From NCBI GenBank assembly GCA_033439255.1, contig CM065891.1:372001-436000 (forward strand): a stretch of DNA of 64,000 nt, in the 5' to 3' direction. The position numbers were made by a program, and so were the translations under genes. Every line of letters begins with the position of its first letter. Positions within the stretch are counted from its first letter, which is position 1. This document shows, one piece after another, positions 4,162 through 45,431 of this stretch. The notes under the pieces are model-generated. The model saw only the letters and a list, made by a program, of their open reading frames with translations. It was not told the DNA's origin and ran no database searches. This DNA is from Hericium rajendrae (taxonomy: Eukaryota; Basidiomycota; Agaricomycetes; Russulales; Hericiaceae).

Positions 4162-4355
4162 GGTGAAGTGGGGACGACCTGAAAGGCGAATTGAGCAGAC
4201 TCGGGCTCTAAATCTAAGGGCAGTGTTAGGCGGTTACGTCAGCACCAATATGAGGATTTAGCCACGCCGTCGTGTCGGGTCGCTCTCCCCTTCGACGCTT
4301 GCTTGACGCGCACACTGAGTGCCCCGACTAACATAACCACACTTTACTAGCAGGC
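4162..4355. promoter_or_regulatory. Compact divergent promoter between VPS2 and SSL1
   Basis: Only 194 bases separate the two start codons (4161 minus, 4356 plus), so both 5' UTRs and both core promoters must lie here. No TATA box is obvious. Inferred from gene positions, not from motifs. Confidence 0.6.
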
Positions 4356-10868: not shown

Positions 10869-12570
10869 ATTAACATAAATATAAAACGACGCCGGTTTAC
10901 CTTGCTTACAAGGTCTCGACCGAACCCAACCACTCCCGCACACCCTCAAGACGTGCATCCGAGCCCTCCCACCTATACCACTCCATGACCTTGGACCCTT
11001 CGTCTCTCTCAATCAAGAAGATATTGCCGTTGTCACCCTCCGGCCCCGCGCTCGCCCGAGCCTGCGCGCTGCCCTCGCTTGCCTCCAATTTCGCGGAAGA
11101 CTCCGTCTTCCTTGGGCCGGGATATAAATCCCGTCTCCTCGTCACGTAAGTCGTCTCGCCGAGCAGGTTGAGCGCAAAATAATCGGCAAGTGGGAGCGAG
11201 CGCAGGCACTCCGTTGCGATGCCGCGGAATGCGGCGAGGAGATCCGTGAAGTCATTTTCTTGGCTTGGCTCGAAGTTGAAATTCACGAATTTGAGGTGCT
11301 GGAGGCGGGCGAGGTGCGCGCATGCAGCGCGGCAGACCTAAAATGAGGAGCCATTCAGGACATTATTGACTGCTCCAACGAGAGAGAACGCACCGCGATG
11401 GTATTATCCCATGTGTCTTGAGGAGAGATGTCGTCGAGATCGGGATACGACAGGGTGATATCCAGGTCCGCGAAGCTCAGTTGCGGGGCAAATCGCGGGA
11501 GGCGAGAAAAGAAGAGCTGTCCGGATAGCCGATTGGACTTGTCCACGTTCTCGTCGTCGAACTTGAGGAGAAGCGAGAGGCTGCGTGCGGAGCCGGCACC
11601 GAGCGCCCCGGCAAACTGCTCGAACTCGCTTTTCGTGTTTATCCACTGGCTCAGTCGGACCATGCAGATGTTGTGGTGTGGTGCGAGTTCCAGCGCGGTG
11701 TCGAGCCGCCCATTTAGACCGATCAGGCTCGGCAGAATCTCAGGCCCGTATTGGGATGGCCCTGCGGAGACATTCGACCAACTGCTATTGATAAATTGGA
11801 CGTTGGGGAAAGCATTGTGCAGGTCTGTCGGCGAGGTTTCCGCGTCGTAGAACGACACCATGCGAGCTGCCTCACATGGGATGTTCCCTTGCTTAAAACC
11901 GATCCGAAGATTCTCATGCATGGAGCCGCCCAGATGGACACTGATTAACGTCTTGGCAGAGGGTGCAGTGACAGCAAATATATCCAAGTCTTTTGTAGGC
12001 TCGTCGAACGTGAGGCTGAGGTCGCGCAAGCCGGTGAAGGGCCTGACGAGCTGCCAGCCCCGGTCGCTGATGGATCCCATTTCAAAAGTTTGCGAAGGCG
12101 GATGTGCGTTGATGGCATCTACCAGGCCGGGCGCCCATTTGAAAAGGTCGTCCGCAAAGACTGGAATCCTTAGCGATGCGAGGTTATTGGTGGCCGCCAC
12201 AAGATCCGCGAGAGGCTGCATCGCGGGGAGAAAATCCGGGTCAGTCTCATTGTCATGGACATATTCGTGCTGGATTTTGAGGCATCTGACGTAGTGTCCG
12301 AGCCGGCTCGACAGGATTAAGTGGGAGAGGCTGATAATGTAGTCGGGAACTTCGGTGTAGAGTTCGACAGTGTGGACAAGGAGGGGTATTGTAACAGCTC
12401 TTCCTGCTTTTGAGGTGCATGCGATGGTCATGAGCGACGATTGGTCGAGATACGATAAGATCATAGCAGCGCAATCTGAGTTCAGAACAGGAATGAAGGA
12501 CGACTACATTTACGTGACCATATGAGTGAGAAGCTAGGAAAGATTAATAGCAGAACGCACCATGATAACT
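10869..12570. repeat. Tandem segmental duplication, copy A
   Basis: Copy A of a roughly 1.7 kb direct duplication. The match with copy B begins about 37 bases below the stop codon (shared ATTAACATAAATA at 10869 and 13236) and continues through the whole gene to just beyond the start codon. Upstream sequences then diverge. Confidence 0.9.
10906..12563 (-). CDS. F-box/LRR-like protein, tandem copy A
   Basis: Minus-strand exons 12563-12561 (the ATG alone), 12503-11394 and 11337-10906 give about 514 residues. The second exon begins with an F-box-like helix (CAAMILSYLDQSSLMTIACTSKAGRA), followed by Leu-rich segments (LRDLSLTFDEPTKDLDIF, ARSLSLLLKFDD). The third exon encodes an unusual Gly/Ala/Glu-rich loop and ends WLGSVETL. 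The one-codon first exon is supported because copy B has the same ATG-GTGCGT junction in front of divergent intron sequence, and both second exons then start Ser-Ser. Introns are 57 and 56 nt. Probably a substrate adaptor of an SCF ubiquitin ligase, inferred from the F-box only. Confidence 0.8.
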
Positions 12571-13235: not shown

Positions 13236-14938
13236 ATTAACATAAATACAAAACGACGCCTGTTTACCTTGCTTACAAGGTCTCGACCGACCCCAACCAC
13301 TCCCGCACACCCTCTAGACGTGCATCCGAGCCCTCCCACTTATACCACTCCATGACCCTCGACCCTTCGTCTCTCTCAATCAAGAAGATATCGCCGTTGT
13401 CACCCTTCGGCCCAGCGCTCGCCCGAGCCTGCGCGCTGCCCTCGCTTGCCTCCAATTTCAGGGAAGACTCCGTCTTCCTTGGACCGGGGTACAAATCCCG
13501 CCTCCTCGTCACGAAAGTCGTCTCGCCGAGCAGGTTGAGCGCAAAATAATCGGCAAGCGGGAGCGAGCGCAGACACTCCGTTGCGATGCCGCGGAATGCG
13601 GCGAGGAGATCCGTGAAGCCGTTTTCTTGGCTTGGCTCGAAGTTGAGAATCACGAATTTGAGGTGCTGGAGGCGGGCGAGGTGCACGCATGCAGCACGGC
13701 AGACCTAAAATGAGGAGCCATTCAGGACATTATTGACTGCTCGAACATGAGAGAACACACCGCGATGGTATTATCCCATGTGTCTTGAGGAGAGATGTCG
13801 TCGAGATCGGGATACGACAGGGTGATTTCCAAGTCCGCGAAGCTCAGTTGCGGGGCAAATTGGGGGAGGCGAGAAAAGAAGAGCTCTCCGGATAGCCGAT
13901 TAGGCTTGTCCACGTTCTCGTCGTCGAACGTGAGGAGAAGCGAGAGGCTGCGCATGGAGCCGGCACCGAGCGCCCCGGCAAACTGCTCGAAATCGCTTCT
14001 CGTGTTTATCCACTCGTTCAGGCGGACCATGGAGATGCTGTGGTGTGGTGCGAGTTCCAGCGCGGTGTCAAGCTGCCCATTTAGACCGATCAGGTTCGGC
14101 AGAATCTCGGGCCCATATTCGGTGGTTAGAGACGGCCCTGCGGAGACATTCGACCAACTGCTATTGATAAACTGGACATTGGGGAAAGCGTTGTGCAGGT
14201 CCGTTGGCGTGGTATCTGCATTGTAGAATGACACCATGCGAGCTGCCTCACATGGGATGCTTCCCTGATTGAAGCTGATCCTGAGGTTCTCTTGCGTGGA
14301 GCCGCCCAGGTGGACACTGTTCAGTGTTGTGGCAGAGGGTGCAGTGATAGCGAAGATATCTAGGTCTTTTGTAGGCTCGTCGAATGTGATGCTGAGGTCG
14401 CGCAAGCCGGTGAAGGGCCTGGCTAGCTGCCAGCCTCGGTCGCTAATGGATCCTATCTCAAAAGTCTGTGATGGCGGATGTGCGTTGATGGCATCAACCA
14501 GGCCCGGTGCCCATTTGAAAAGGTCGTCTGCGAAAACTGGGATCCTCAGCGATGCGAGGTTATCGGTGGCCGCCACAAGATCCACGAGAGGCTGCATCGC
14601 GGGGAGGAAAACGGGGTCAGTTTCATCCTCTTGGACATATCCGTGCTGTATTTTGAGGTGTCTGACGTAGTGCCCGAGTTGATTTGACAAGACTGAGTGG
14701 GAGAAGCTGATAATCTGCTCGGGAACCTCGGTGTAGAGCTGGACGGTGTGAACGAGGAGGGGTAATGCAACACCTTTTCCTGTTTTCGAAGTGCATGCAA
14801 TGGTGACGAGAGAGGATTTGTCGAGGTACGATAGGATCGAAGTAACGCAGTCTTCGTTGAGAGCAGGGATAATGGATGACTGACTTTTATATGAGTGAGA
14901 AGCCAGAGATGACCGACGGCGACACGCACCATGATGAC
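13236..14938. repeat. Tandem segmental duplication, copy B
   Basis: Direct copy of 10869-12570 in the same orientation, about 2.37 kb away. The protein of the last exon differs by only a few residues, while the first exon region is more diverged, including a different intron 1. Confidence 0.9.
13273..14932 (-). CDS. F-box/LRR-like protein, tandem copy B
   Basis: Minus-strand exons 14932-14930 (ATG alone), 14879-13761 and 13704-13273 give about 517 residues. Same architecture as copy A: F-box-like helix (CVTSILSYLDKSSLVTIACTS), a leucine-rich middle and the WLGSVETL end. It differs from A by scattered substitutions, a short insertion (SLTTEYGPE where A has SQYGPE) and a 50 nt instead of 57 nt first intron. 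All splice sites are kept and no stop interrupts the frame, so both copies look functional. Recent tandem duplication with ongoing divergence is typical of fungal F-box clusters. Confidence 0.8.
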
Positions 14939-15771
14939 CGACCAGCCAGGAAACTATTAGACGTCTTTTTCCAGTAGCGCAAGGGATTTGAAGCAGTCTG
15001 AAGAGCAGGGTATCGATGTCAGAAGACTCAATCGCGATACGCTATGCGCAACTCACCACCGATGGTCGTCAAAGTTGCAGTTTCGGATGGGGTGCCAGCT
15101 CTTTCAGTTAGCTATCAGTGTTGAAGAGCGAAAGGGTATGATATATGTAGAGTTTTAGGTTTTGAAATGCTTGGTATGATACCTGATAGCCATCATGATG
15201 TGAATGTGATCTGCGCAGAAGCAGTGCGAGGCTGCGCTTATGATCCGTCCATCGACATATTACAGACGCTGTCTGCCTTCCCCATCAGTAGTGTACTGAT
15301 AGACGTCGAGGCCGCGGAACAAAGACGAGGTGGAAAGAATTTCGACGAGATGTCGACGCGCTGTCTAGTAGCTAAGTTTCACGTGCCTAAAACATTTGGT
15401 CACATGCGCGCCTAGATATCTCCTGAACCGCCGCCGAACCGTAAACGTACCCATTCTCCGATCTTCAACTTGCCTTTCGCCTTCAAGTTGCAAAGCAGTA
15501 CCTGTCGACCATCATCGTCAATCTTCCGAGGTCGTCTTGGAAGCGTTTGGACTAGTGTGGTCAATATCTAGCATCCAGCGTAGACCAACTTCTGCTTCCG
15601 TTTGAAGGCCAAGCCCTTACACTTGTCCGAACTGCGTAACAGCTCGTCGGCTCCCCATTGTCGACTTCACACAACGACAGAAGATCTTGATTCTGCATCT
15701 CTAGGCTTGTCGACGTAATTCAACCGGCCCCGCTCCATCCTATAGACACGCTTCACGGCAGCATACCAGCA
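14939..15771. other. Intergenic region upstream of the antiporter gene
   Basis: About 830 bases with only short unsupported frames. It should contain the promoter of the Na+/H+ antiporter gene. No motif stood out. Confidence 0.4.
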
Positions 15772-19768: not shown

Positions 19769-21087
19769 CGTCGACAAAAAAAGAGGGTGCGATGCTCGTC
19801 GTTGCGTACGACGACGGTGTCGAGGATGGCTGTCGGCTGTTCCAAACATCATCCGCCAATGGTAAGGTGGCTGTTCCGGGAAGGTATTGCCTTTTATGGA
19901 TGTTCACGCCACCCATCGGCGACAACTCGACGACTTTGCCAGTTACATTCTCCATCATGACTATACAACCGTGGCCTTTCTGCAGCTCATCTTGTTCTAC
20001 AAGGTCTGTTGATCAGCATGCGAAGCTAAGCATATTGCTAGTTAAACGCTGACACTTTCCTTTAGAGCGAGACTGCTCGTCTCAGGAGATTTACGCTTCA
20101 TCTCCCATCATCTCTGGCCAGGCAGCTCCGCCCAACACCATCAAATGCTTGTCTATGATGGTGGGTGGTCCGGGTGGTTCCGCCTGGTGATTCTGATTGA
20201 ATGATGACCGGTATTCTTAGTGAGGCTTGATGAATGCCCGCGACATTTGACATTGATAGCAACAGTCGTGGGTGTTGAGCTTTGCTTTGATTTCGAACGA
20301 CTCTGCTCACAGGAAGCATCGCCTAGATCAAAATTGTGTTTGCGATAGCCCGGTTGCTCTCAGTGCCTTCCGATGTAGACGCTCGTTGCATGGCCGTGCA
20401 ATGCGACCGCTGCATCGCACTGTACCGCATGCGACAGTTGCGTCTGATCGCACTGTAGCACGCTCGCGCATAATCCAGTTTCTCGCAATATGAAACTGCT
20501 AGGAAGATGCTGCGGAATGCTTCTTAAGAAATGCTTCCGAGAAATGCTTCCTTCGGACCGCTGGTCAGTCCGACTTTCGTCTCAAAGCTTTGCATGAGGA
20601 TAATAACGCTTGCATGTGACAGATGCCCATATGGACATATGTCAGGGATTGCAAGGCATCGCATTCTTTTTATGCTTATCTCTCGGTTGCTATGAACTGA
20701 CCCTCGGAGCCGATATGTGAAGATGTCGTAGTGAGGACGAGACCTCTGTGGATTTGTCACCCTCATTAATTGCTCGGAACCGGAACGGGATCTGTATTCG
20801 ACTTTCACTGTCTACCTGATGACGAAGCTCCAGATTCAAGCTGTTGCTCCACAGTTCCTACTACGACTCTGTACGTTGTCGACTGGCTGTGGATCGTGCT
20901 AAACTCGTCCGTCACGCAGCACGACTTAGTAGAATTTCCCCTTTTCTCGGTTCCACACGAGGTTGAAGGACTGGGTCATTCTGGCCTCCGCAAGGTACGG
21001 ATTCCGGCCATCCACGGTGCTCATCGCGAGATACTGACTATGTTGTGTATACGCAGAGAGGTGACGACGAAGATTAGATTACGTCGG
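19769..21087. other. Gene-free stretch
   Basis: About 1.3 kb with only short, unsupported frames. No RNA gene or repeat recognised. A direct short duplication 'aaatgcttcc' occurs near 20528-20548. Confidence 0.4.
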
Positions 21088-21096
21088 ATCTGATAA
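21088..21096 (+). promoter_or_regulatory. Iron-responsive GATA element (ATCTGATAA)
   Basis: Perfect match to ATCWGATAA, the established binding consensus of the fungal iron-regulatory GATA repressors (Urbs1, SRE, SreA). It lies 512 bases upstream of the ferric reductase ATG. Function inferred from motif plus context. Confidence 0.6.
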
Positions 21097-21128
21097 GATG
21101 AGCCGAACGCCGGACACTCCTCGATCAT

Positions 21129-21137
21129 ATCAGATAA
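21129..21137 (+). promoter_or_regulatory. Iron-responsive GATA element (ATCAGATAA)
   Basis: Second perfect ATCWGATAA match, 33 bases after the first and 471 bases upstream of the ferric reductase start. Confidence 0.6.
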
Positions 21138-21237
21138 TTTTTTGAGCGGGGGCCATGACGCTAGCGTCGGCTGAAACTCTTCTCCGGTCCTGATATATCT
21201 AATCGTGGCGTTACCAGGACTGCGGTGGCGACGATCC

Positions 21238-21248
21238 TTATCTGATAA
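21238..21248. promoter_or_regulatory. Palindromic double GATA element (TTATCTGATAA)
   Basis: This 11-mer contains ATCTGATAA on the plus strand and ATCAGATAA on the minus strand, so a perfect iron-GATA consensus is present on both strands, overlapping. It lies about 360 bases upstream of the ferric reductase ATG. Confidence 0.65.
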
Positions 21249-21607
21249 GAAATTACACTCCTCATCTCCATCTGAATCTCGTTCGGGCTCACCGATACGT
21301 CCTGAAGAAATTCCTGGCTCTCTTCCGGCAGCTTGCCCGCATAAGTAGCCAATCCGACCGACTCTCTCGGCATAACATTGCTCAATTTCTCTCGACCGAG
21401 GCCTGAGATGTGTCGTAAAGGCAGGCACCCGTTTTGGTCTCGACCGACCACTCCAAATATCGTGGGCGCCGTTTCTTTTTCGATTTCTCCAGCGGTTTTG
21501 CGAGGAACGGCTTGATGAACCTCGCAGTATAAATTCAAGTCCACTATGAGCTGGCCTCTTCACCCTCCAACCCCTGCAGCGTTCCTCTCCGTCTGGCCCG
21601 AAGCACG

Positions 21608-24096
21608 ATGAGTTCAGCAGACGTTTTCGCAGCGGCGGTACTAGCCAAGGCAGCCAATCCCGACAGGCAGTTCACTTCATACCGGACGAGGGAATATCCC
21701 AAGCAAGTATGGTACTTCGTTGTTTGCTTCATCTTCCTCGTCAGTGTCTGCAACCTCGTCTCTCGTGTTATCCCCTACCTGCGTAAACGAGCCATCGCGC
21801 GAACAGATGTGGAGGGCGAGCAGGCGTCATGCAGTGGTGCTATCTCATATCGTCGAGTGCCAGTCGCCGTTATCAATGCCTTCCGCATGGTCGCCTTCCG
21901 CTCTGTCATCCCTCTCGGGTTCGGTTTCTCGGTCAACTTGGCAGAGCTCTTCATATCTGCCGCCTATATGGCGATCATATCGGCCTGGAGTTTGGCATAC
22001 AGTGAGTCTCATCTTCTCTTCGGCGACGATTTTTGCTGACCGTCTCTTCAGCTACGGATGTCGCCGGAAACAGATTTGATGCGGGTTATTACGCTAACCG
22101 GGCAGGCGATATCGCTACTGCTCAGTTACCCCTTCTTGTTGCGCTCGCCATGAAGAATAATCCTTTATCATGTACGTCGTATTCGCCCATTCGCTCTGGA
22201 CAGTGTGCTGACATCGCACGCAGTCCTCACTGGCATCAGCTACGAGAAGGTGGATACCTTCTCTTGAATCTGGGTTCGCGATCTCACATTTCATTCCTTA
22301 ACAGTTCAATTTCCTACATCGCATGTTTTCACGCGCCATCTGTGTAATTCTGTGGATTCACACTGGAGGCCGGGTAAGTGCTTAAGCACCATGATTGGCT
22401 TCGAGCACCACTGACCGGTCATACAGATTTCTTTGAAGTGCGCACACCCGTGATCTCGTTATTCACGGTTGCTCATGATCTTTACAGACTCAGAGGTAGG
22501 ACTGCCATTACCGAGCCTGTTCTGCAATGGGGGATCGTCGGAATGGTTGCTCTTACCCTCCTGTGCATCTTCTCTGTCCGACCTCTTCGTCGACTCGAAT
22601 ACGAGTGGTTCCTCATCACGCATTTCCTCTTTGTTCTGTATGTGACATTTTTTCTCATCTGTAATGTTGAGCTTACAAATCTTCAGTGTTTTCTTGATGG
22701 GCTCGGTGATCCATGCCCGTTGTGGTGAGTAAGTACAGGTTTCCCCCGTTGTCACTGTGACTTTGTCTCACTAACATCGCGTGCAGTAAAGAGTACTTTG
22801 TCTGGCCCGCCATTGCTCTCTGGATCGCAGACCGAGTCGTCCGCTTCATCCGCATCATCGTCTTCAACCACTCCTACTTCGGCCTGAAGTCGGGCGTGGG
22901 CACGTTCAATGCGACCACGCACCTCGTCGCCGAGGGCTACGTGCGCCTCACCTTCCGGCGCCCCTCGCACCTGCACTGGTCAGCTGGCCAGAACGCATAC
23001 CTCACCATGCCCAGCGTGTCGGCCCATCCATTCGAGGCGCACCCCTTCACGATCGCGAATGCCGACATCAGCCGCGACGAAGGCGAGGCCAACGAGAATG
23101 GCGACCCGGAGAAGGGGAGCGTTTTGTCGACGGCGTCGATGTCAACGGGAAAGGACATTGTGTTCTTGGTCAATGCGCGGCAGGGCTTTACGAAGCGGCT
23201 GCTGGATATTGCGGCGAAGGATGGGACGCTGCCCGTGTTCCTTGACGGCCCATATGGGACCCCGCCCTCGCTGTGGGGGTATGACAGTGTAGTGCTGATT
23301 GCTGGTAAGTGTTACGGCGTGGTGTATAGATTAGATTCTCACTTTGTTCCGCAAAGGTGGCTCCGGTATCACCTTCACCTGCCCTCTGTTGGTCGACCTT
23401 GTTCAGTGCGTATTCATTTATCTGTCGTTTTGTCGTGTCTAATATTTCCTTTTCAGTCGTGCCCGCCGCGACCCCTCCTCCGTTTGTCGGAAGGTGACAT
23501 TCATCTGGGTAATCCGCCACCTGGGTACGTGTGCGAAAATACCAATTTGACCTTGATTTTACTCATGACCAATCGCAGAGCAAATCAGCTTGGTCCATGG
23601 GGATTTGAGCAAGGCTCTCGAAGACGCCCCTCCCTCGCTCACCGTCGACGCACGCATCTTCGTGACCACTGCTTCAACCAACATGCCGTCGCTCAGGGAC
23701 AGCGCTACAAATTCCATCACCGGCTCGGCGCCCAATTCGCCTCTGGATAAGACGGCAAGCGCAGGCCTAAGCCTTCCGCTGGCGAGAATGGAGGCAGGCC
23801 GGCCCGACATCGGCAAGGTGCTCGACGAAGCGGCTTCGCTGGCGCGGGGAAGCATGTCGGTATGCGGTACGTCTCGAATGCTCTCTGTACGGTCGCTGCA
23901 GATATTGACGTGCCGGCAGTGTGCGGTCCTACGGGCTTGACGGATAACGTGCGGAAGGCGCTGCGCTCTCCATCCGGTCTGGTTAATATCATGAAGGGCG
24001 GTCCCAGTGTCGACCTATTCATCGACCACTTCGATTTCGCCGTACGTTCTATTACTTCGTTGCCTCAACTTGTGGCTAACTTGATTCGTCTAGTGA
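21608..24096 (+). CDS. FRE: Ferric/cupric reductase transmembrane protein (FRE family, FAD- and NAD-binding)
   Basis: Thirteen exons (21608-22001, 22052-22171, 22224-22249, 22305-22373, 22427-22437, 22488-22637, 22687-22728, 22787-23304, 23357-23405, 23457-23524, 23579-23866, 23920-24041, 24094-24096), about 619 residues. Exon 5 has 11 nt, and the last exon is just the TGA after a textbook GCTAAC branch site. Membrane helices carry the haem-binding histidines (LHRMFSRAICVILWIH and THFLFVL...VIHAR). A cytosolic flavoprotein domain follows, with the FAD motif HPFTIAN near residue 356, the NADPH motif GGSGITFTCPLL near 444, and the CGPTGL motif near 580. The enzyme passes electrons from NADPH via FAD and two haems to extracellular Fe3+ or Cu2+, the first step of reductive iron uptake. 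Three iron-GATA motifs lie upstream. It faces a ferroportin-like gene. Confidence 0.93.
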
Positions 24097-24944: not shown

Positions 24945-26646
24945 TCAACATTTACACCCGGTGACCTTCTCCCAATGCACCAAATGCCCTCTCTGCCTCC
25001 ACATCCACGTGGTATACGCCGCGACCGCCAGCGCCACCACACCACTCCCAGCCGCGCCCAGGTACCTAAACTCCTCAGGCTTGTTCCACACAGCGGTAGC
25101 AACCCATTGCGCGAGCTCGCACGCCGAGACAAACCCCATCTCGACGCCCGAGAACTCCCCACGCCTGTTCGGCGGCACCCTCGTCTGCACCAGCGTCTGC
25201 ACTGCGAGATCGTACGTCCACAGGCCCATGCGCGAGAGTGCCAGAAACGCGAATAGCTGAACGGCCTGCAGCGATGACGGCGCGGACGCGGGGCTGAGTG
25301 AGAAGAAAGCGTGCGTGACTGGGAGCAGGCAGAGAAACTGGATCCAGAGGCCCCACAGGCCCATCCTTTGGACGGCCGCGGACGAGAGCTCTCGGTCCGG
25401 CGTGTCACAATCGGAGCGATGCTGCTGCTGCTGGTGTCGGCTCTCCATGAGCTTGACACCGAAGGGCATGACTGCCGTGGCGGAGACCTCGACGAGTGTG
25501 CTGCATGTGCGGGCGATGGTGATGGTCGAGAGCGCAAAGTTGACGGCGAGGAGGTACGTGATCATTGATGCTGAGAAAGAGAGGACCGAGAAGTAGAGGA
25601 GGGCGAGGGAAAGCGATGGGATGCAGACGTCCTGGCTGAAGAAAAACGCCATGCCGCTTCCCCAGTGACGGAAGTTCTCCCGCAGAGAACCATCGTTCAA
25701 CGAGGCCGTACCCTCTCCCAGCTCCGGAGCTGGCTTAAGCATGCGCAGACGTGTGTTCGCCTTCCAAACCCGGTGAGCAGCGACCCACTCCACAGCAACG
25801 GAAGCTGTATTGGTACCAGCAATCACGACGGCCGTCAGTTTCATACTCCGCAACGCCAGCGTGAGGGCCGACACGAACAAGGGTGCGACCAGTTTACAGA
25901 TCAAGTCGATCCTGCGCATCACGGCATTCAAGACATGCAGTGACGGCGTGGACGTAGCGCTTGCCAGCGTGGGCACCCAGTCGCGTTCCATCACCATCAT
26001 GTTGCCGACGGCGCTCAGACGCTCGCCCACACCAAGCACGATGACGGCTGCCATGATACCGGCAGTCTGCAGGGTGGCGCTCTGTCCTGTATCTTGGAGA
26101 CCACGCGGTATCTCCTGACCATGGCCGACATATCCCTCGCGCGCGATCATGGCCCAACCTCCACACGCGATCACTACGCAAAACCGTTGGAAAAAGATTG
26201 TAGTGCGCAAGGCTTCAAGGCGAGAGGGGTGACTATCGGCCCAGCGTCCCACAGCCGAAGACAGAAACAGCGTCGCAACGGTGGTGACAATGCCTCTTTA
26301 GCCCAGGCCCGTGTCAGAGAACTACGAACCGCGTAGTGAGTAAAGACAAACCTAATCGACGACGCAATCAGCGTGTCTGGATACGCGGACGCCGTGAATA
26401 GTATCTGTCAAGCCGGCTCGTTAGTACCAGGTGCCTACATGCATTGTCACATCATTTGCGTACTGCTGCAAATTCATATCCCCTTGCATTCCAGGTCGAT
26501 AGAAAGTGCGAGAGATAGAGGCCCCATAACTGATTCCGGTTCAGAACCACCGTTTCCGAGTCTTCAGGTTCGGATTCGACGGTCGAAATCAGCGGCGCGG
26601 TTGACTCGATGGGCTCCAATTCCAGAAGTGACTCTTCAGAGGTCAT
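24945..26646 (-). CDS. FPN1: Ferroportin-like iron exporter (SLC40/FPN1 family)
   Basis: Minus-strand exons 26646-26464, 26404-26352 and 26295-24945 encode about 528 residues (human ferroportin 571). After a 40-residue acidic N-terminus, the signature SHFLSTWNARGYEFA lies at the end of exon 1, followed by YPDTLIASS and VGRWADSHPSRLEA, the equivalents of the first helices and loop of ferroportin. Further marks are the ERDWVPTLA and LNAVMRRIDLICKLVAPLFVS segments, matching the conserved Arg-Arg-Ile-Asp-Gln region of SLC40, and SRMGLWTYDLAVQTLVQTRV with RRGEFSGVEMGF near the C-terminus. About 10-12 hydrophobic helices are visible. The family exports Fe2+ (sometimes Co or Ni) from the cytosol or loads it into vacuoles. 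The direction and membrane here are not known. It is convergent with the ferric reductase gene. Confidence 0.88.
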
Positions 26647-37475: not shown

Positions 37476-40400
37476 ATGTTTCTCATAAAGCAGCCTTGTA
37501 CATATCCTCGTGTGGTAGACAATGATCATCATCCTCCGTCAGATGGTCAGCATGATTGGATGGACTACCTTGAGTACTACTCACCTCTCTATTACCCCGA
37601 GTTACATCCACAAATTTTCGGCGATGGTGCCAAATTATGTACGTGGTTCACTGAGATGGTAAAGGAGGCAAGTCCCGGCGAATGGAATGTATGGGCTGAG
37701 AATCAGCAGTTCATTGTGATTCCGAGACAAAGACAGTGCAGACCTTTTGCAGTTGATTTTGCCGCAGTTTCGGATGCGACGTTTCGACCAGAAAGGATCC
37801 TTGGCGATTTGAAGAAGCCGATCGCGACACATAGTAGTAGGGATGGTAAAAATCCACTTTGGTTCAGGTCCTCGGAGGAGCACTTTGTGAATTCGTTGAT
37901 GGCGCTAAGCTACGAAAAATTGGAACAATGCCTAAAGCGCATTCAGCAAGCACGAAACCAGAAAATGGGGAAGCGTGACTGTTGTGCAATGATTGCTGCT
38001 CATGCGCAACGGTTGATAACAGATTTTTCTGGTACTGACACATATATTTTCCGCACTATGGCCTATATGATGGGAATGAAGGATGCAGAAAGATGTTCAC
38101 GGGACAGTGTTATCTGCTTTTACTTCTGCTTTATGGTTGGACCGGAGATATGTGATAGATTGCGCACATCGGGATGTCATGATCACCCAGAAAAGGGTGT
38201 ATGCAGTGGGACACCAAGTATATTCGATGACGATGTGGGAGAGGCCGTGCAAACAAGGTTGTTGAAGACGGGTCTCGCTATCAACACATTGCGAACGGCT
38301 CTTACCAGGATTGATCCGATGAACGAGCTTTGTAATGCACCGAAAGCCGATGTAGGTTGCCTTGCACAAGCCATTGTAGCCAATTTCAGAGTTAGAATTG
38401 CATGATTGCAGAGTTCACCGATCTCTCACCTGCTTGAGGATGTTCTATGCTGTAATCCACAGTTTATAGATGACGAGATGAGGATTTTCAGCGATGAGGA
38501 TTGCATAGCTGCGATCTTGAAATGCGAATATGGTGATAAAGTTTCAGCCATCATGCTGAACGCGAGAACCAACATTGAGAAGTTACGAGCGAAGGATCGT
38601 GAGCGGCAACGGAGAGCAACTCGCAAAATTGCTGATGCGAGAAATGCCAAGGCCCTTGAAGAGGAGGATCACCTGCGATCAAAGATAGACAACTGGCCTC
38701 AAGTAGTGGATCCAGAAATCGTGTTTCGGCGACTGAACGACTACATGGAGAGGTCAAACTGGAAAGAGCCTCCTACGTGCTGTGTATGTTCTAGAGCAAA
38801 AGTAGGAATGAGGTATTCGTCAATCAAAAGCACGGATAAAGAGTTTCCGAACCAGATCTGGGATCCGCTGGAGGTTCGGGACCCTCAAGTTCGAGTCGCT
38901 ATGTCACTCTGTGGAGATGTGACACGAATGGTGACGGATATGGCCAAAGGTGATGAAAAAGATATTTTGCTCGATAAAAAAGGAGTGAACATCATATCCT
39001 CTGATGACAAGAAAGATGCATGTGAGTATGAGTACCTTATGTGTGCGGACTGCAAAAGAGAGCTCTCACGGGGGAAACTGCCAAAATTCGCTTTAGCCAA
39101 TGGACTGTATCGTGGTCGCTTACCAGACGAATTTGCAGATTTGACGTGGATTGAAGAGATGGTATGCTGCATATATCGTACTACCGCCATGGTGACTCGT
39201 TTGTATAGAGGTAGCAGTGATCGCGATCCGCGCGTAATGTATGGCAGCACATGCGCACATGAAATGAACACTGTTGATACTGCAGAGAAGCTTCCGCTCG
39301 CGCCGGCTGACGTGAACAACATGCTGTCCGTGGTCTTCGTGGGTCCTGGCACGGTAGAGACTGATAGTCTGAGGAACATTTTCTATATTCATAAGCAAAA
39401 AACGATGAATTTCCTGAGATGGTTGAAGCGCAACAATCGGTTATATAAGGACGTGCTGGTCGATGAGGCTGTTTTTGATTTGTATCCTGAAGACGGTGCG
39501 CTACCAGGTGTAGATGGACGAGTGATTTATACAAACATGTCTGCAGAGGAGGCAGACGATGTTTTCAAGCAGGAAACAGCTGGCGTTAGTGAGCATCCAT
39601 CAGAGCTAATGTTTGAGGATAAAAGCGGGGGACCGACCGTTGAGCAGACTCCTCCAGTGTACTTGGAACGCTGTGGGGTAGCGGATCCGGAGAATGTTGA
39701 TGTGTCTGGGCGCACAATGCTAGCGGCAGGTTTGAGAAACTTACTACCAAGAAAGGAATCAGAGGATGTAGGCATGATTATAGCGCGAGGTAGTCGAGCG
39801 ATAAATGAATGGAATAACCCCGATTTGTACCATGGAATGTATCCGACTCTGTATCCCTTCGGCCTTGGTGGCTTTGAAGATACAAGACGAGATGTCAAAA
39901 TCAGCTTTGGAACACAAGCTGAATATTACCTAGATTTATCTGATAGAAGCTTTCGCTATCATTACTCATTTATGTTTGTTGTGCTAAATATCATTCAGCG
40001 TAGAAAAGGCCAATTGCATACAAGCTTCATGGTAAAGAAGTCTCATTTCCGTTCGGTTATGAACGAATTGCGCGGATTGAACAGAACATCAATTGAAGAA
40101 TTTGCGAGTCTGCTCGAGAAGGAACGTACTTTGCCGTCATCATTTAATGCAGAGCAAAAAGTTCTGTGGTCATTGATGAAGGAATTTAATGCAATATCTG
40201 CCAAAGTACCGGGCTCTGAAGCGTCGAAGGTGTCAGTAAGAGCTAATATAAGGAATTATATGGGTGAATTCGGCTTACCTGCACTATTCCTGACGGTGAA
40301 TTTTGCTCCACAACACAGCCCGATTTTTCAGGTCATGTTTGGAGACAAGGTTGTTGATTTATCCCGTCGGTTTCCACAAATCGTCCCAGGCCCGGAACGG

Positions 40401-43400
40401 GCGAAGCGCTTGGCGAAAGATCCCGTGGCAGCTGCTGACTTCTTTGATTTTTGTTTACAGTGCTTATTTGAGGGTCTATTTGGATGGGATATGAAAAAAC
40501 GACGCTCTACGCCAGACGGGGGCATTCTAGGACATCTGAAGGCGTACTTTGGAACTGCAGAATATAGCGAACGTGGGACATTACATGGTCATTTTCTGCT
40601 TTGGCTGCTGGGCGCGTTAAACCCTTCCGACTTGCATGCTCGACTGAAGGTCGATGAGGCATTCCGGATTCGATTCTTTGAGTTCTTTGAAGATATAATC
40701 AAACACGATGTACCCGAGGTAGATTTCTCTACCGCCAAGTTGGCTGAATTTGAGCCAAGAGTTGAGAGACCTCCCACGCCTCCGTGTCCCATCGGTCCGG
40801 GAGAGACACGCCCGGAAGAGGTCATGAATAAATGGGAAACTGTAATGGCAACTGAAGTACGTATGATCGGTGAAAAATTACAGAGACATACTTGTCAAAG
40901 GATCTGCCATAAATATGGAAATGAAGAGCGCTGTCGTTTCTTGTTCCCGCATGAGATCGTCGAGTCATCACGCTTTGATGCCGAGACAAACTCTGTTATC
41001 TTTGTGTGTAAGGATGCGACAATGAATTACTATAATCCATATATCCTGGTGTTTTCCCGGCACAATCATGATATAAAATGCATACTATCGGGAAAAGCAG
41101 CGAAGTCAGCAATGATTTATATCACAGATTACATCACGAAGATGGAGACTAAATTCACCCAAATGTTGTCTATGCTTTGTGGTGCAGTCCTCAAACTACC
41201 GGAAGGGTTGGATGTAACTACAAAGGACGGATCCAAGAAGTTGTTATATAAATGCTTGTCCCAGTTCAGTAAGAAACAAATCATCCAAGCACAACAAGCA
41301 GCACGATACCTACGAAATCGAGGGGATTCTATTGAATCGCATGAGAGGGTGCCTATGCTTTCTGGGTTGGTGTTCGAGTTTGCAAAACGGTGCTATGCGC
41401 AGATAGCCAAGAAAGATCCTGACGTGACCATGAAGGATGCCGATCATGCCTCTGATACAGACAATAGTGATGACGAAGAGGATGATAGCGCAGGCATCCA
41501 GATGAATCCTAAGCAGGGCTCCGATGTCGAAAAAGGCAGAAGAGACAAAGCAGAAGACGAGGATCAGACGGAGGAAGAAGAGCATATCCAAGTTCAACTG
41601 CGAGTGGATCGTGAAGGGAGGCTTATTGATGCCACTCAGATTGATGACTACCTTTATAGAGATGTGCGTCTTGAACATATCAATTTCTGTGATTTCATCA
41701 AATTCTATCAGGTCTCTAAGAAACAACAGCTCAGCAAAGAGGAACGTGCCAAATTAAAGAGATACAAGTTGGAATCCCCTCACCCTTGCGCTGACAGGCA
41801 GGAAATTGTTGAGCGATACGTTGGCGCAGAATCTGCGGGAGACTTCCCTCGCGTTGTGGTCCGTGTAACAGGCATGACTATCCCGCGATCCACAAAAGGA
41901 GAGATACATGCGTTATTCATGTTGGCGCATTTCAAACCTTTCAGTGCCAGATGTCCATTATTTGGGTCTAATGACTACGATATAGACGCACTGATGAAGT
42001 CATACCCTTTCTCCGAGAGAAGCCAACAGATCATGAGGAACTGGGAAGAAATCTACGAATGTGAAGATGAGCGCGATGCAGAACGGATGAAGCGACGTGA
42101 CAAGTTGATGAAGGAAGCTGGGAAGTTGGAGAAAAAAAAGAAGCAACGGGATGAAAACGATGAGAACATACCGGAGATTGGCAAGGCGGCCTCAGGGAAT
42201 GATGAAAATTTTAAGATCCGGATGTAAAGGATATGTTGGACAAATTAACAGACGCGAGATTTCTTGATCCTGCGGTGTTTCTGGATCGTGGAGCAGTTTA
42301 TCGTCCGCCAAAAGTCCCGATTTCCTCCCAAGGATTGTCCGCAGTGGATCCGAGGCAAGCACGTGACTGGGAGAAGGAAATTAAGATCCAAGAAGCTGCG
42401 ATACAGTCCGCAAGGTTGAATCTGCTTGATCCGGGAGCACAAAACATTAGGATGGAACCAGAATCTGTAGGAAGCACTGATGTTAATCAACCAGTGAAGA
42501 TAAGGGATAGAACGCCAGACTTTTCTGGTTATGTACCACCTGTACCACCTACATTGATTAATAACGGGGGACTGGACGTTCCATTAAGTACAGCAGATGA
42601 AGTTATACGGACTGTTGCGGAAAAACATACATTGAATAAAAAGCAGTTTTATGCATTTGAAATTATTGCACGAGCATGGATCAAAGTTCACGAGCGACGC
42701 ATTTCAGGAGAGGCAGTCGATGAAAGCAAAGATAATGATGACATACTTCGATTATTAATGACTGGTCCCGGTGGGACTGGAAAGACTCATTCTGTGATGG
42801 CAGTGAGGGAGGTCATGGAGTATTACGGTAGTGCGCACAGACTTAGGCTAACTGCTATGACGGGCTCCGCGGCTGCTCTGATAGGTGGAACGACTTGCCA
42901 TAAGGGTCTAGGTATCCGTGTTAGACAAAAAGTCAACCAGGAAGGAAAATCACGAACCGGATTGGATGAAAAGTACGAAATCGATCTGCCCCCAAATGCT
43001 CGCGCGGCGTTGAGAGCTAATTGGAAGGATGTAGACATCATGCTAATAGATGAGGTCTCACTCGTTAGTCTGCAGATATTGTCAGACATTGATCATGCTT
43101 TGAGATATGCAAAAGAGAAGCCAAATACCTGGTTCGGAGGCATGATAGTAGTCTTCTCTGGGGACATGATGCAATTCCCACCCGTTTGCGCTACAGCTTT
43201 GTGCCACATCGCGGGGTGCTAGGTCGAAATTGAATGGGAACCAGCTAAAGGTAAGCCTGGGGAGGCTCGCATGGAAGACGGTGAACAAAGTGATTGAATT
43301 TGATGAGCAATTCAGGATGAAGGATGATCCCGCCTATGCGGCTGCGGTAGGCCGCTTGCGTCTTCATGAATGCGTCCAGGCCGACGTAGATCTTTTCAAT

Positions 43401-45431
43401 TCACGAGTTATTCGATCAAGGCGAAAACCGAATGGAATCCTGTTGAGCGGGGAGGAGAATGCAAACGTGGTGACGATTGTTGACACGAACAAAGTCCGAG
43501 AAAAGATCAATTTGCGGAAGGCACAGAGTAACTCTATACCAGATACTGCACCAGAATTGGTATTGTGCGCAGCCCTAGATTTCATCAACGGTAAGCTAGT
43601 GCCGGTGAACGATTCCCGCAATTTTAGAAGGGAAGCGTTAGCTTTACAGACTGCTGCACTCACAAAAGAAGGAGCTCTACCTGGATATATACCATTGTAT
43701 ATCGGAATGCCGGTCATTCTGCGCAGAAAGCATGTATCCGTCGACCTGAAAATTGCCAATGGTTGCCAAGGCACGGTGAGACATATAGAGATGGGAGTCG
43801 ATGAAACTGGCTTCAATTATGCGAAACTGGCGCTGGTTCACTTTCCTGGAAGTAAAGTCAAACTTACAGGTCTAGATCCAGAAGTATGTATAATCACCCC
43901 GGATTCCTGGTCATTCAGCACAACCCTTGAACTTGAGAAGGGAAATCCCAAGCGTTATACGATCAACCGAAAGCAACTCCCTATCCAGCCTGCCTTCGCT
44001 GTTACTGGGCAATCAGCACAAGGGAAGACGTTGCCAAAAGTGATAGCTGACCTATCCAAGGGCGGTGCGGCTGCTTATGTGGCTGCTTCAAGGCCAAGGC
44101 GACGAGAGGACATCTATTTGATACAAGAAGTCCAGCTTCAGCAATTGAATAAACGCATGAGTGCAGATATGATGCTAGAACTAGCCAGATTTCGCGCTTT
44201 GGAACATAATACCTTGAGACGCCACGGATATTGTAAGGGCGATTTCGTTGATGTTCCGGACCCGGAAGAGCGCTACATGAACACTTTATCTCAAGCAGAG
44301 AGGCAACCGAAATTCGAAATCACATGGACGGATGATCAGCCATCGAATAAGAGGAAGCGAAAGCTGGAAGAGGACGATGCCGTATCGTCAGTAAAGACAG
44401 CAAAGCGGCGGAAAGACAAAACACAAACAGGACAGGAAGGCGCTTCCGCGGATGAATACCTCCCCGGATGCCAATGGTCGAGTCAGGACTATTCCTGTGC
44501 ATACGACTCAGTATTTATGAGCATGTATATGATGTACAGATCAGCCAGGTTGCAATGGCAGCGCGGATGGACAGATGGCAACATCATCGCGACACGCCTG
44601 TCACAGTCGTTTAGTACTTTGGTAGGATTGGAGCAGATACGTCCTGTCCAGAGTGATGAATTGAATTGGCATCGGGATCAGCTGCGAGACCTTTTGAGTG
44701 AAATAAATCCTACAAGATATCGTCGAAGGGGTTTTGAATACGCGTCAGCTATGGACGTGATATACGACGCGTGGCGTTCAGATCATAAGGATCTGTGCTT
44801 GGTTCATGTGAATACGGCTGAGAATGTGTTCCCTGATGCTAGATTGTTCCTTGAGATATACGAAGATCCAAGAATGAGTATAGAAAAGCATTCGATTCAA
44901 TGTTGGGTAAACGCTTGCCTTAGCAACTGCTACGCCGCTCCTCCCAGTCTTCCAGAGTATCACACGGAGCAGTGTAACGATATTATCCTGACCTGTCATG
45001 GTTTGACACAGGCACCAGCATGGCTATACTTCGAGTGCGCGTGTCAATTGGGAGGAACTATCGAACCGACGCGTTTCCTGAGCATCCCGGTTTGCGATGA
45101 GAGGAGAACATACATTTTGAGTTCTATTATTTACTTCGGTGGCGCGCATTATACAGCAAGAATCTGTACTGATTCTGCGATTTATGCTTACGATGGTCAG
45201 AGAATGGGAGGCAAATGTGTGAAGCAATTTACTCACGATGCAGAAGAGTATGATGCTGAAATAAGGCATACACTTTTGACACTGGATGGTCGAAACGCTC
45301 AGATTTTCATTTATACACTGACTGAGAACGACCACTCATCTGGACTTCCTGCGGGAATGACGGGACCGGGCAGAGAAATGAGAGACATTCCACATTTGCG
45401 AGCGAGGATGTCTGCTCGAAGTGCCATATAG
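37476..45431 (+). pseudogene. Helitron Rep-Pif1 helicase polyprotein, nearly complete but interrupted
   Basis: Four consecutive open stretches (37476-38405, 38406-42227, 42233-43222, 43230-45431) form one protein of about 2,650 residues. Breaks are an in-frame TGA at 38403 (same frame continues), a frameshift just before the TAA at 42225, and a frameshift near 43200 before the TAG at 43220. Domains in order: DUF6570-like cysteine motifs (CCVCSRAK near 38782, CADCK near 39041); Helitron-like N region (FLTVNFAPQHSPIFQVMFG near 40290); Rep HUH motif ERGTLHGHF near 40575; two-tyrosine motif YITDYITK near 41118; Pif1 Walker A GPGGTGKT near 42765, Walker B MLIDEVS near 43040, and a late helicase motif AYVAASRPRRREDIYL near 44070. 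The last third adds a region with SSQDYSCAYDSVFM near 44470 resembling a cysteine-protease active site. No introns seen. Confidence 0.9.

Follow-up and report, generated by a model that had tools for sequence, protein, structure and literature searches.

The 161-bp cluster of ATCWGATAA sites upstream of a ferric reductase gene (FRE) in Hericium rajendrae is likely to be the iron-responsive operator of this gene, at which an Urbs1/SRE-type GATA factor would repress FRE when iron is plentiful. The cluster lies in a 64,000-nucleotide stretch of DNA, here referred to as the window, and positions below are those of the window unless a contig, a locus or a start codon is given as reference. An iron-GATA reading had been proposed for these sites in an initial annotation of the same DNA; our analysis supports that interpretation, which fits the sequence evidence described below.

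The FRE promoter contains three iron-GATA sites

An exact-motif scan of the window identified four ATCWGATAA matches that correspond to three sites, one of them palindromic, within 21088-21248. Site 1 (21088..21096, + strand) reads ATCTGATAA and is part of ATCTGATAAGAT. Element 2 (21119..21142, + strand) reads CCTCGATCATATCAGATAATTTTT and contains ATCAGATAA at 21129-21137. Site 3 is the palindrome CTTATCTGATAAG (21237..21249) with the consensus on each strand; its two matches are at 21238 (- strand) and 21240 (+ strand), i.e. TTATCTGATAA at 21238-21248. The positions and sequences given in the initial annotation are correct to the base, as seen both in the motif scan and on reading of the letters, and its claim of a 161-bp span located 360-520 bp 5' of the FRE start is borne out with the ATG at 21608. 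Over its first 900 bp, the FRE promoter has four HGATAR cores, each of them in the full ATCWGATAA context. Outside the cluster, the window has two further ATCWGATAA matches, at 39936 (- strand) and 56904 (+ strand).

A TATA box, TATAAAT (21528..21534, + strand), is present 80 bp before the FRE ATG, and 88 bp before the ATG in the FRE paralogue on contig C13. By eye, a 21-codon frame begins at an ATG further upstream (21546-21611, + strand), and its stop codon overlaps the FRE start (ATGA); given the TATA box at 21528, this frame may precede the transcription start. Sites 2 and 3 form an imperfect inverted repeat (21125-21137 and 21238-21250; 13 nt, 92%, 100 nt apart), the sole one reported in the FRE promoter. 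A repeat search revealed no direct repeats in 20600-21607, and a single, short tandem repeat (20527-20551) in 19800-21700. The HapX-type site CSAAT-N12-RWT had no match on the + strand in 1 kb of either the window FRE promoter or that of the C13 paralogue.

The cluster is not expected by chance

In dinucleotide shuffles of the window, 0.96 ATCWGATAA matches are expected (sd 0.95) versus the six observed, and 0/100 shuffles reached six. We also searched the genome (46.77 Mb, 19 contigs) using the reversed motif pattern as a control. ATCWGATAA is present 1000 times on both strands versus 326 for the control (three-fold, with palindromes counted twice), ATCWGATAAG 222 versus 55 times, TTATCWGATAA at 51 versus 11 places, and the palindrome CTTATCWGATAAG at 12 versus 0 places, with site 3 of the window being one of the 12. 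At the genome density, a group of three independent sites spanning 161 bp has a Poisson P of ~7e-9, and ~0.005 such clusters are expected in the whole genome, a figure that assumes an even placement of sites, which does not strictly hold. Specifically, the repeat-rich region L058 (C11:1964001-1972000) carries 10 ATCWGATAA matches over its 8 kb, and one palindrome accounts for two of them; a promoter role of these matches is not apparent and they inflate motif counts independently of promoters. Because of these repeat matches, and because only ~30 of the 1000 matches were tied to named genes, the motif alone is no proof. The cluster in the FRE promoter is real and non-random.

The gene downstream of the cluster is a predicted ferric reductase

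In our splice model, FRE (21608..24096, + strand) has 13 exons separated by 12 GT-AG introns of 49-58 nt and encodes a protein of 619 aa, and the end of its stop codon is at 24096, the gene end proposed initially. With matches to PF01794 (E 3.6e-27), PF08030 (3.6e-21) and PF08022 (7.8e-10), the protein unites Ferric_reduct, NAD_binding_6 and FAD_binding_8 domains, as ferric reductases do. Among solved structures, its best relatives comprise a putative ferric reductase as well as NOX/DUOX proteins. Ferric reductases have two heme-binding His pairs with ~13 residues between the partners. By eye, FRE has the pairs FLHR...WIHTGG and ITHFLF...VIHARC with 13 residues between each pair. An 11-nt micro-exon (22427-22437) between two GT-AG introns preserves the reading frame; one-intron solutions at 22374-22487 were rejected because they required poor splice sites. 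For 22633-22786, seven splice solutions are open, and the one chosen has GTATGT and GTAAGT donors and resembles the paralogue. Based on this model, the FRE gene is intact. Its exon structure and the gene set also suggest a basidiomycete.

The element arrangement is partly shared with a paralogue promoter

The nearest FRE paralogue is the one on C13, which is 43-49% identical to the window FRE in three long aligned pieces. In the upstream 1 kb of the two genes, similarity is confined to short islands. The element 2 island CGATCATATCAGATARTTTTT (-479 in the window, -577 on C13) has 22/24 bases in common, the paralogue core being ATCAGATAG, and none of 500 shuffles reached its 35.6 bits. The ATCTGATAAGAT island (-520 and -616; 12 bp identical) and the palindrome island CCTTATCWGATAAG (-370 and -348) score 22-24 bits and are each alone at chance level: 31/500 shuffles reached 23.8 bits, and a match off any GATA site (13/14 bases, -543 versus -877) scores equal to the palindrome island. 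The order of the elements is the same, and the first two are spaced by 41 and 39 bp in the window and C13 promoters, respectively. Since the two weak islands have chance scores, a kept module is argued by identity, order and spacing rather than by scores, and on this basis the three-element arrangement appears to be partly conserved in the paralogue promoter. The initial annotation had missed this repeated arrangement, as well as the status of the ferroportin gene described below. As for HGATAR cores, the C13 promoter has one at -466 outside the full context and one at -574 within ATCAGATAG. Exact copies of CGATCATATCWGATAR are present at three places in the genome, i.e. at the window FRE, at the C13 FRE and at C5:2350559 (L068), and for this third copy of element 2 no gene could be named in the 1 kb read.

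Iron-GATA sites recur at other iron-uptake genes

The initial annotation had called for a genome-wide count of the motif and a test at iron genes. Carried out in part, this check came out in its favor, with sites at FTR1/FET3, at 4/8 FREs, at an SRE-type gene and at a heme oxygenase gene. The motif is therefore shared by the window FRE and further iron-uptake genes. FTR1 (- strand) and FET3 (+ strand; a multicopper oxidase, named by position and domain) are divergent, and the ~900 bp between their start codons hold three sites (1512, 1885 and 1949 of locus L057); one palindrome is inside FTR1. At ~5-6 kb from the start codons of FTR1 and FET3, C9:986596-986674 (L067) holds a further single site and a palindrome, and no gene was named there.

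A search with the Ferric_reduct profile gave 12 pieces that were counted as 10 genes, eight taken as FREs and two as NADPH oxidases (NOX), and upstream reach across these genes was uneven (~0.8 to 2.7 kb). A palindromic site is present upstream of four of the eight FREs (the window FRE on C14, C13, C6:549937 and C6:1152631). The C13 gene has this site at -348 and a single site at -616, the FRE at C6:551k has it ~955 bp before the likely ATG together with a single site ~253 bp before it, and the FRE at C6:1150k has it at -1036. No site was seen in the 0.8-2.5 kb read upstream of the other four FREs, of which C11 carries three and C7 one. The two NADPH oxidases, which belong to the same Pfam family and have NADPH oxidase (gp91phox) as their best solved relative, likewise gave none in the stretch read (0/2). 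For 4/10 genes to have a palindromic site within 2 kb, P is ~5e-9. As a background, the seven other GATA-factor loci have two sites in 70 kb versus 1.5 expected.

For the 12 places with the palindrome CTTATCWGATAAG (L009-L020), we read 1.5 kb on each side and scanned chosen open frames by Pfam. Within these limits, a plainly iron-related gene is beside 3/12, two being FREs and one the heme oxygenase gene, which adjoins the palindrome of L013. The palindromes of L009, L015 and L016 (at position 1501 of each locus) are beside genes for a mitochondrial carrier, a CIA30 (complex I assembly) protein and a Pyr_redox_2 protein, and these neighbors, in part mitochondrial, may also belong to the regulon. 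The palindrome of L017 is in a repeat region, L010 has a Pfam match to TGT on the far side only, and the frames scanned within 1.5 kb on each side of L011, L012, L014 and L018 gave no Pfam match. For the siderophore branch, a PF13434 search of the genome did not find an ornithine N5-monooxygenase; the only match (C13:2020975) falls in a protein that is FMO-like (PF00743, E 9e-28), and it was left out of the iron gene count. The genome has TRI12-like transporters at C3:3.746-3.752 Mb. NCBIfam gave nothing for the six proteins scanned.

The genome encodes a candidate SRE-type GATA factor

The genome has at least eight GATA-finger loci. In L050 (C4), two fingers, each of the form C-X2-C-X17-C-X2-C, have CPGDGRCNGTGGTQACSGC (C-X5-C-X8-C-X2-C) between them and, judged by this pair of GATA fingers with a Cys-rich motif in the middle, L050 is predicted to encode an Urbs1/SRE-type factor. 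SreA and its relatives are described as being defined by two fingers and the interposed Cys-rich region (PMC2610380), and a report on SreC describes the four-Cys segment as required for iron and DNA binding (PMC10938068). Three iron-GATA sites (6777, 7212 and 7815 of the locus) are 1.2-2.2 kb upstream of the first finger and one more is at 4286 on the far side of the gene; the upstream sites are compatible with self-control.

A ferroportin gene is tail to tail with FRE

A ferroportin gene (24945..26646, - strand) is convergent with FRE at a distance of ~850 bp. The model (528 aa, three exons; Pfam FPN1 E 9e-67) is one of four open splice models and was picked by length and fit; the best solved relatives of the protein are SLC40A1 structures, and a PF06963 search of the genome found no other such gene. 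The motif scan of the window gave no ATCWGATAA near it. At what we take to be the position of Asp39 in human FPN, the protein appears to have Ala (STWNARGYEF). If this protein is an iron exporter or store loader, it should be wanted at high iron, opposite to FRE. No report of a fungal ferroportin beside a ferric reductase was found in the titles and abstract openings searched, and this tail-to-tail neighbor is less expected than the iron-GATA sites. On the other side of FRE, a divergent open frame with its ATG at 19852 is ~1.2 kb away from the cluster, which is located between the two; this frame has no Pfam domain.

A model for iron control of FRE

Based on the evidence reported here, we suggest the following model, for which we infer binding, the sign of control, iron sensing and membrane location from known relatives. 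When iron is plentiful, the GATA factor would hold iron via the Cys-rich region between its two zinc fingers, and the iron-loaded factor would occupy the three ATCWGATAA sites, with the two fingers being suited to the palindrome. Bound in this way, it would repress FRE along with FTR1/FET3 and further reductase genes; a heme oxygenase gene and probably the gene of the factor itself would be repressed as well. Upon iron shortage, the factor would release the DNA and FRE would be made. FRE would then reduce Fe3+ at the cell surface for uptake by the Fet3/Ftr1 ferroxidase-permease.

Sre, Urbs1 and Fep1 are repressors, and the system described here is very probably an ordinary iron-controlled switch, i.e. 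known iron-GATA control with new members. It resembles the Aspergillus fumigatus SreA regulon, in which ATCWGATAA is 5.4-fold over-represented upstream of SreA-regulated genes and enriched in front of iron-uptake genes, a putative ferric reductase is among the repressed genes, and the factor likewise has two GATA fingers with a Cys-rich region between them; the same report fits the motif to sites of U. maydis sid1 and S. pombe str1 and fio1-fip1 (PMC2610380). However, the SreA regulon is described as having many siderophore-gene targets (PMC2610380), while the sites seen here are at reductive uptake genes. Similarly, Ustilago maydis Urbs1/sid1 offers distal GATA sites in a basidiomycete promoter with iron repression via a GATA factor, but there the target described is siderophore synthesis (PMC2610380, PMC10938068), while here it is a ferric reductase with three elements. 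Cryptococcus neoformans Cir1 is likewise a basidiomycete iron GATA regulator of reductive uptake; it is described as being without one finger and as activating CFT1/CFO1, unlike the L050 factor, which has both fingers (PMC2991262).

The iron-GATA regulon is known mainly from moulds, yeasts and smuts; Canessa et al. in 2012 reportedly described PIR1, an iron-linked GATA factor of the white-rot fungus Phanerochaete chrysosporium. With a motif set that was checked within the genome, the present analysis extends the regulon to the genes for reductive uptake in H. rajendrae. The FRE promoter is compact and testable; whether control is positive or negative is a real question in basidiomycetes.

Indeed, because Cir1 activates CFT1 and CFO1 in a basidiomycete, the sign in H. 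rajendrae could be opposite. That the same factor mainly activates FRE through the cluster, or that the cluster also serves the putative divergent gene, is in our assessment unlikely. Cir1 is reported to have both positive and negative roles, including positive regulation of CFT1 and CFO1, but it is also reported to lack one of the fingers (PMC2991262), both of which the factor here has; moreover, in the mushroom Auricularia cornea, iron treatment of the mycelium is reported to lower a ferric reductase as well as a multicopper ferroxidase and an iron permease (PMC13041173). The position of the cluster between FRE and the frame starting at 19852 would allow shared control; against this, that frame has no Pfam domain, and the elements of the C13 paralogue are at a similar distance from their own ATG (-616, -577 and -348).

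AreA/Nit2- and white-collar-type GATA factors accept HGATAR, and every core in the cluster is also such a site. With at least eight GATA-finger loci in the genome, one of these other factors, of the AreA/Nit2 nitrogen type or the light/white-collar type, might be the main user of the cluster and confer a nitrogen or light response. We regard this as very unlikely: AreA-type factors do not need the full ATCWGATAA context, in which all four cores in the first 900 bp are found, and the extended sites mark FTR1/FET3, FREs, the heme oxygenase gene and the SRE-type gene. Least probable of all, to the point of being nearly negligible, is a chance cluster or a repeat-derived motif. Region L058 illustrates that repeats can carry many sites, and sites 1 and 3 alone match the paralogue promoter no better than shuffles; however, the number of such clusters expected genome-wide is far below one (~0.005), element 2 beats all 500 shuffles in the same comparison, and the repeat searches around the cluster found no direct repeat and a single short tandem repeat.

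Thus, we favor repression by the Urbs1/SRE-type factor. A more elaborate proposal would be that the three elements (ATCTGATAAGAT, 39-41 bp on CGATCATATCAGATARTTTTT, and the palindrome) form a fixed-order operator that is read by a multimeric iron-GATA complex or with a partner protein and is conserved across duplicated reductases and, in addition, that FRE and the sole ferroportin gene found are a tail-to-tail reductase/exporter pair under opposite iron control. Taken jointly, these parts are speculative and rather unlikely all to hold.

Other features of the window

A tRNA search of the 64 kb found none. The + strand carries a Helitron-type transposon at 38406-45431, the long open frames of which encode DUF6570, Helitron_like_N and a PIF1-like helicase; the Pfam scan covered 38406-42224 and 42215-43219. 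On the - strand, two closely similar tandem open frames (11355-12503 and 13722-15041) are F-box-like by eye, and their similarity suggests a recent duplication.
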